From NCBI GenBank assembly GCA_902793635.1, contig CADBEA010000019.1, forward strand, positions 1 through 41,275: a stretch of 41,275 nucleotides of DNA, in the 5' to 3' direction. Below are positions 1,445-19,859 of this stretch, piece by piece. The DNA comes from an uncultured Erysipelotrichaceae bacterium (lineage in GTDB: Bacteria; Bacillota_I; Bacilli_A; Erysipelotrichales; Erysipelotrichaceae). The notes beneath the pieces are model-generated. The model was not told the DNA's origin, made no database searches, and saw only the letters and a list, made by a program, of their open reading frames with translations. Position 1 is the stretch's first letter, and each line of letters opens with the position of its first letter. A program made the translations under genes and the position numbers.

Positions 1445-1494
1445 CACCTTTCCTGTGATTTGGGTAAACTAAAATCATAGGAAAGGTGTTTTTT
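1445..1494 (+). terminator. Intrinsic terminator overlapping the ribosome binding site of the next gene
   Basis: Bases 1445-1461 (CACCTTTCCTGTGATTT) pair with 1472-1488 over 17 consecutive positions, with a single G-U pair and a 10-base loop. Six T residues (1489-1494) follow, and the ATG of the PTS IIB gene starts at 1495. The 3' arm contains AGGAAAGGTG, which is also the only Shine-Dalgarno sequence for that gene. The element can therefore terminate transcription, hide the ribosome binding site, or both. Confidence 0.85.
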
Positions 1495-1803
1495 ATGAAG
1501 AAAGTGTTATTTTTATGCGCTGCCGGTATGTCCACCACGCTTCTGGTAAACAAGACAATGGAAGCCGTTCATAAAGCCGGAAAAGAAAATGAACTGATCT
1601 TCACTGCCAGTGAAGTTTCCAATGCCTCTGAGGCTGTGCAGGATGCCGACTGTGTATTGCTGGCACCGCAGGTCCGCTTCAAGCTCAACGACCTGAAAGA
1701 GCAGTTTCCGGGTCTGAAGATCGAGATGATCCCGCCGCAGGTATACGGCATGTGCAACGGCAGAGAAATCATCAAACAGGCGGAAAAACTTCTGAAGCAG
1801 TAA
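1495..1803 (+). CDS. PTS system lactose/cellobiose-type IIB protein
   Basis: This 102-residue cytoplasmic protein carries the phosphate-accepting loop of cellobiose/lactose-type IIB enzymes: FLCAAGMSTTLL, with the phospho-cysteine at residue 8. In the family, IIB takes phosphate from IIA and passes it to the sugar during IIC transport. Length is normal for a free-standing IIB. The ATG at 1495 is chosen over an in-frame GTG at 1486 because the purine-rich AGGAAAGGTG lies just upstream. No IIA or IIC gene is in the window, so it either serves components encoded elsewhere or has a regulatory role. It lies between a dehydrogenase and rpiB, which hints at sugar-phosphate metabolism. Its ribosome binding site is buried in a terminator hairpin, suggesting expression controlled by antitermination or RNA refolding. 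Confidence 0.88.
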   Translation: MKKVLFLCAAGMSTTLLVNKTMEAVHKAGKENELIFTASEVSNASEAVQDADCVLLAPQVRFKLNDLKEQFPGLKIEMIPPQVYGMCNGREIIKQAEKLLKQ

Positions 1804-19376: not shown

Positions 19377-19859
19377 ATGGCGAGACAGAAAGATTATTTT
19401 TCATTTGAATCGATCCGGGACAGGGAAGGGAATGTGGTATGTTATCACGTGACCATGATCGGCACGATTGAAGCGGACGGCGTTGCCCGCATGCGTACCG
19501 ATTTCGGTGCTGACGAGAATCAGCGGATGGCTTTCGGCCGTCTGACGGTCTGTGGTCTCGACAAAAAGATCAAAGTCTTTACCGATCAGCTGAACTGCCG
19601 CATCTATTATCATTCCTACAGCGAGGAAAACGGCGCGGTGGACATCATCAGTTTCTCGGCCAAAGACTGGCGGGCTGACGAAGTGTACGCACTGCAGGAA
19701 GGCGACCGCGTGCTGATCGAGGGAAGAGCCTATATCCGGCCGGTTTCCGAAAAATATCCCGACCGTCTGCCGGAAGTCAGCGTGACAATGACCGGCATGT
19801 TCCTGCTGGGTCATAAACGTTTCCACAGCATGAACAGCGGTCTGATTCCCCAGAAATAA
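19377..19859 (+). CDS. SSB-like OB-fold protein (tentative)
   Basis: The 160-residue protein resembles single-stranded DNA-binding proteins only in outline: an early strand VTMIGTIEADGVARM, a middle strand VDIISFSAKDW, then LQEGDRVLIEGRAYIRPV, close to the SSB signature LKKGDRVLVEGRL. It lacks the acidic SSB tail, ending SGLIPQK. A nucleic-acid role is inference. The ribosome binding site is weak, and no strong promoter is visible in the 90 bases upstream, although TIR-gene read-through is possible since I see no terminator between them. It is followed by its own terminator. Confidence 0.65.
   Translation: MARQKDYFSFESIRDREGNVVCYHVTMIGTIEADGVARMRTDFGADENQRMAFGRLTVCGLDKKIKVFTDQLNCRIYYHSYSEENGAVDIISFSAKDWRADEVYALQEGDRVLIEGRAYIRPVSEKYPDRLPEVSVTMTGMFLLGHKRFHSMNSGLIPQK

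Follow-up and report, generated by a model that had tools for sequence, protein, structure and literature searches.

The window is the whole stretch of DNA analysed here, a complete contig of 41,275 nucleotides in the draft genome of an uncultured Erysipelotrichaceae bacterium. Close to its 5' end, a phosphotransferase system (PTS) IIB gene lies between an oxidoreductase gene and rpiB, and a hairpin covers the start of the IIB gene. An IIB match at E <= 1e-25 was found in 4 of 70 genus genomes, the window's own counted. The orthologue set comprises the window and the loci L013 (genome G067), L014 (G017), and L015 (G011). The features at the locus are as follows.

1-1404, + strand: upstream Gfo/Idh/MocA oxidoreductase gene with an HbpS-like domain (Pfam PF01408, PF22725, PF03928), truncated at its 5' end by the contig boundary
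1402-1425, + strand: weak hairpin (8 pairs, 1402-1420; fold energy -5.1 kcal/mol) with T5; it overlaps the TGA of the upstream gene, for which it may act as a first terminator
1442-1447, + strand: candidate -35 box TTTCAC, 17-nt spacer, overlapping the base of the hairpin 5' arm (promoter model; weak match)
1445-1461, + strand: hairpin 5' arm (inverted repeat search and folding)
1465-1470, + strand: candidate -10 box TAAACT in the hairpin loop (promoter model; TAAA[CG]T at the same place in all four orthologues)
1472-1488, + strand: hairpin 3' arm, with a predicted transcription start near A1477 inside it (repeat search and folding)
1479-1486, + strand: Shine-Dalgarno sequence AGGAAAGG, in the 3' arm (from the sequence; AGGAA equally spaced from TAAA[CG]T in all four orthologues)
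1489-1494, + strand: T6 tract, with the stem on its 5' side and the ATG on its 3' side and no gap; kept in L013, missing in L014 and L015
1495-1803, + strand: PTS IIB gene, lactose/cellobiose type, 102 amino acids (PF02302, 57.8 bits against a cut-off of 23.6; TIGR00853 below cut-off)
1845-2321, + strand: rpiB, ribose-5-phosphate isomerase B, the next gene (TIGR01120, 188 bits against a cut-off of 138.65)

The oxidoreductase gene precedes the IIB gene in all four orthologous loci. The window copy, which was the one scanned, joins the Gfo/Idh/MocA oxidoreductase and a C-terminal HbpS-like domain (PF03928) in one frame; a gene of about equal length occupies this position in L013, L014, and L015. 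The CCCGGG hairpin at 1402-1425 is not conserved in L013, which gives the window's species two putative terminators in tandem. No IIC or IIA gene adjoins the IIB gene (1495-1803). Its genome has 11 matches to PF02302 (IIB) versus 2 to PF02378 (IIC) and 1 to PF02255 (IIA), and this IIB may share an IIC encoded elsewhere. In G067, GH1-like glycosidase genes (family assigned by eye) precede the oxidoreductase gene, together with a second IIB gene (L056, 10737-12203 and 12332-12640, - strand). IIB paralogues stand on both sides of the same cluster in that genome.

A hairpin over the IIB gene start

The hairpin pairs the Shine-Dalgarno sequence and ends in a T tract at the start codon. We find a single inverted repeat between positions 1380 and 1900, with two 17-nt arms that are 94% complementary and separated by 10 nt. 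The sole mismatch, G1455 against T1478, becomes a G·U pair in RNA, so that the stem has 17 uninterrupted pairs. The T6 tract that follows abuts the ATG of the IIB gene (1495-1497). Folded in isolation, the hairpin has an energy of -25.2 kcal/mol, and its stem has a mean pair probability of 0.91-0.93 when folded in four contexts. The stretch 1400-1520 has a folding z-score of -5.3, and none of 200 shuffles folded equally well. The element has one feature of an intrinsic terminator, a stable stem running directly into a U-tract. It also has one feature of leaders of the T4 gene e and I-TevI type, a stem that pairs the Shine-Dalgarno sequence in RNA from upstream. This confirms the preliminary description of the locus, which reported a 17-pair stem with T6 reaching the ATG and the Shine-Dalgarno sequence inside the 3' arm.

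The hairpin is real and exceeds chance expectation. We surveyed a genome sample consisting of the window and 20 stretches of 20 kb on both strands (441,275 bases, 18% of the 2.43-Mb assembly). This sample contains 340 hairpins with at least 12 pairs, 36 of which have at least five T among the next eight bases. Only two of those 36 lie within 10 nt of an ATG that opens a frame of 60 or more codons: the hairpin of the window and one in L053. Hairpins with at least 17 uninterrupted pairs and at least five T in eight bases occur at two distinct places in the sample, in the window and in L054. Twenty Markov-simulated sets of equal size gave one such hairpin in all. A T6 tract ending no more than 3 nt from the ATG is found at 1 of 273 other gene starts, again the L053 start. 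The folding survey of gene starts covered 273 starts and left out the IIB start of the window, which is therefore unranked.

The L053 start is a possible second case of a hairpin over a gene start. There, at 19593-19639 on the - strand, a weaker hairpin (-14.6 kcal/mol) with T7 directly precedes the start of a gene for a PfkB-like sugar kinase, a family assigned by eye. TATAAT lies in the loop of this hairpin, and the catabolite-element-like sequence AAAGCGCTTTCA lies in its 5' arm.

A repeated element was also considered and rejected. The string formed by the Shine-Dalgarno sequence, T6, and ATG has a single exact copy in the genome, the one in the window; five other places match it with three mismatches (control, one).

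Conservation among the four orthologues

The stem and the T6 tract are present together in two of the four orthologues and missing together from the other two. The closest relative, L013, retains the T6 tract as well as both arms, which fold with a single-nucleotide bulge at -23.1 kcal/mol. Stem and T6 are both missing from L014 and L015. The bulge in L013 is single because T1451 has become G opposite exactly the base that is missing there (A1482). An unrooted comparison of the upstream protein pairs the window with L013 (0.90) and L014 with L015 (0.84). The window and L013 are one lineage, and retention of the stem counts once. The preliminary description had stated that its reading would be contradicted if close relatives lacked the stem. 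Half of this was found, with the stem kept in L013 and absent from L014 and L015. As a single comparison with one lineage on each side, the joint presence and absence of stem and T6 points to termination rather than to a DNA operator.

Between the window and L013, the hairpin block has diverged little. The alignment has 4 changes in 54 columns across 1441-1494, versus 10 changes in 38 columns across the preceding 1405-1440 and differences at 71 of 205 fourfold sites in the genes on either side. The divergence of the block is lower than that of the fourfold sites (Fisher p = 4e-5) and that of the preceding stretch (p = 0.018). Positions 1431-1450 are without any change. Since 1431-1440, the end of the preceding stretch, is also unchanged, constraint begins slightly before the hairpin. 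Constraint on a promoter and a ribosome-binding site could alone preserve much of the block.

We consider it highly improbable that the hairpin is chance complementarity without function. The simulated genome samples, with just one such hairpin among the 20, argue against this, as does the fact that the block has changed little between two species. What can be said for it is that the hairpin is known from one lineage only and that a weaker look-alike stands at another sampled gene start, that of L053.

The part of the hairpin common to all four orthologues is its loop and 3' arm. Here, TAAA[CG]TA-N7-AGGAA recurs at fixed spacing; L013 has G after TAAACT, so that its shared part is TAAACT. Identity to the window in the loop and 3'-arm block is 13/20 for L014 and 16/20 for L015, and just upstream it is 9/26 in each. 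Neither L014 nor L015 shares the 5' arm. In L014, the distance between AGGAA and the ATG is too great for a Shine-Dalgarno sequence and a second motif, AGGAG, lies nearer; the block is retained regardless.

Searches beyond the orthologue set returned little. A scan of genome contigs for IIB orthologues gave the same three relatives and one distant Streptococcus gene, and a search of viral contigs gave none. When 1405-1500 was compared by BLAST with the 70 genus genomes, G067 and the window's own genome were the only ones with long matches. Four of the many weak matches (L026, L027, L028, and L031) were inspected in context, and none of these four has such a hairpin over a gene start. L028 carries GGTAAACTAAAATCATG, which resembles a -10 box followed immediately by a start codon; this has little weight, as a chance match is expected at this search size.

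A predicted promoter in the loop and a proposed read-through lock

A candidate promoter has its -10 box in the hairpin loop. We used a two-box promoter model that started from the sigma-70 consensus and was refitted on 106 gene starts of the same genome, giving a TATAAT-like -10 box and a 17-nt spacer. Unsupervised expectation maximization (EM) recovered no promoter motif, and the boxes of the model lean towards the sigma-70 consensus. With this model, the shared TAAA[CG]T is the top-ranked site in all four 100-nt upstream regions, with modest scores. The window's score lies at percentile 0.35 among the 106 gene starts and at percentile 0.90 of random 100-mers; on the latter scale, L014 is at 0.69 and L015 at 0.53. 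A general consensus scan listed no promoter at the hairpin. The case for a loop promoter thus comes from position and conservation, not from strength. Transcription is predicted to start about 7 nt 3' of the -10 box, near A1477. CAGAAT at 1431-1436 is a weaker -10 candidate, the fourth-best site in the window and the third-best in L013; transcripts from it would begin near 1443, at the hairpin base. The preliminary description had seen no strong promoter inside the hairpin. This holds for strong promoters, and is to be qualified by the modest, conserved -10 candidate in the loop.

Operators commonly take the form of a dyad around a promoter, and the repeat could be read as DNA bound by a dimeric repressor around the -10 box. 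We regard this as very unlikely. For an operator, which would need neither T6 nor the G·U pair, 17-bp arms are long, and two of the four orthologues lack the dyad though the -10 box is kept. Furthermore, no second copy with up to three mismatches occurs in the window besides the two arms, and the 70 genus genomes have no other long match besides G067.

The preliminary description proposed an on/off switch for the IIB gene. In its fullest form, this would be a regulated attenuator, in which transcription enters from an upstream promoter (of the operon, or CAGAAT at 1431-1436) and some factor opens the hairpin for elongation and translation. The anatomy of a hairpin over the ribosome-binding site and ATG would suit such an attenuator. 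The CAGAAT candidate is also kept in L013, within a region where 1431-1450 is identical between the two species. However, the 40 nt after the upstream stop, partly taken up by another hairpin, leave no room for a sensor, and two of the four orthologues lack the stem. An Rfam scan of 1200-1900 returned nothing above the gathering score, only sub-threshold microRNA models. The CAT_RBD antiterminator domain (PF03123) was found in none of the four orthologue genomes, versus 4 of 14 control genomes. No competing fold of similar energy was found in 1200-1497; when the 5' arm was limited to upstream partners, this region folded at -97.9 versus -113.7 kcal/mol, a penalty of about 16 kcal/mol. These searches gave neither a BglG-type antiterminator nor an alternative upstream pairing. 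With the loop promoter predicted in all four orthologues, the stem present in two, and no switching partner of these kinds found, the proposed switch is unsupported. Regulated attenuation is therefore unlikely, although it leads the alternatives considered here.

We propose instead that the element is a read-through lock, combining a terminator and ribosome-binding site sequestration over a nested promoter, and give this reading a probability of roughly 55%. Its anatomy, its rarity, its retention in the nearest relative, and the conserved block of loop -10 and Shine-Dalgarno sequence are observed. From these, we infer promoter activity, the start site, termination, and silencing. The IIB gene would have a modest promoter of its own, with the -10 box TAAACT (1465-1470) in the dyad loop and a transcript from near A1477. 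Because the predicted start lies inside the 3' arm, this transcript would lack the 5' arm and the stem could not form. The gene's own mRNA would begin at about AUAGGAAAGGUGUUUUUUAUG, with its Shine-Dalgarno sequence free, and would be translated. Both arms would be transcribed only by RNA polymerase entering from the oxidoreductase gene. Such read-through should mostly terminate at T6, and any RNA that passes T6 would carry its Shine-Dalgarno sequence hidden within a stem of about -25 kcal/mol. One 50-nt element would thereby make IIB expression independent of the upstream operon. The hairpin most likely insulates the IIB gene from its neighbor. On this point, the hairpin geometry supports the earlier prediction that an upstream transcript would meet a strong terminator or else carry a sequestered Shine-Dalgarno sequence.

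The hairpin might also be no more than an intergenic terminator for the upstream operon, which overlaps the promoter and the ribosome-binding site for economy of space and in which sequestration has no role. Stem and T6 go together across the orthologues, as this would have it, and since L013 is without the CCCGGG hairpin of the window, the element may be the main terminator there. Yet the geometry itself sequesters the ribosome-binding site in any read-through RNA, and such a terminator differs from a lock only in what was selected. We place it just behind regulated attenuation, as a likewise unlikely explanation.

A read-through lock may also have a distinctive origin. It is conceivable, though we hold it with some doubt, that a single 50-nt hairpin serves as operon terminator, ribosome-binding site cap, and promoter housing, and that it arose in one lineage as the DNA upstream became complementary to an older block of promoter and ribosome-binding site, cutting the gene from the operon in one step. 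If true, the locus shows how one compact element can release a bacterial gene from its operon, by stopping read-through at the level of transcription as well as of translation. Simple reporters could compare the hairpin-bearing and hairpin-free pairs among the four orthologues.

Comparison with known systems

Sugar operons controlled by BglG/LicT antiterminators have an intrinsic terminator before a PTS-related gene, as does the IIB locus. In contrast to those operons, no CAT_RBD protein was found in the four orthologue genomes, and no element resembling the ribonucleic antiterminator (RAT) motif was noticed by eye. In the transposase leaders of IS10 and IS200, external transcripts fold over the ribosome-binding site or terminate, and the transposase gene's own transcript starts inside. 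In IS200, the terminator and the ribosome-binding site hairpin are separate. The IIB element differs from these mobile elements in that one hairpin would serve as both.

The rpfB leader of Mycobacterium tuberculosis also has an intrinsic terminator before the gene, and an internal promoter gives RNA from which the initial leader segment is missing, as described in passages of PMC6009663. Those passages report tests of an antiterminator conformation, whereas none was found here. In narrow word searches of the open-access literature, we recognized no chromosomal precedent for promoter-terminator overlaps or read-through locks on chromosomal genes. Because such locks resemble attenuators, they may escape notice in ordinary bacterial chromosomes. 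A terminator over a ribosome-binding site does not in itself imply a riboswitch; what matters is where the promoter lies.

The closest likeness is to phage T4. According to passages of PMC3014915, long early transcripts of gene e bury the ribosome-binding site and reduce lysozyme synthesis 100-fold, and late promoters just upstream yield RNA without the 5' part. Passages of PMC2988022 describe arrangements akin to this for I-TevI, I-TevII, I-TevIII, segB, and mobE. In the gene e and the I-TevI and mobE leaders, a stem hides the ribosome-binding site in long RNA started upstream, and RNA from a nearby or inner promoter lacks the 5' strand and is translated. The IIB stem likewise pairs the Shine-Dalgarno sequence in upstream RNA, and the loop promoter, predicted with modest scores, would give RNA of the second kind. 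If the IIB promoter is real, the element would work as these leaders do, a likeness in working for which we claim no membership. The blocking logic is thus already documented for T4 late genes. Those are phage genes under temporal control from late promoters, whereas the hairpin described here precedes a chromosomal gene, its promoter and effect are predicted, and its T6 tract should also end transcription. What would set it apart from the T4 leaders is the combination of a chromosomal sugar-PTS gene and a U-tract.
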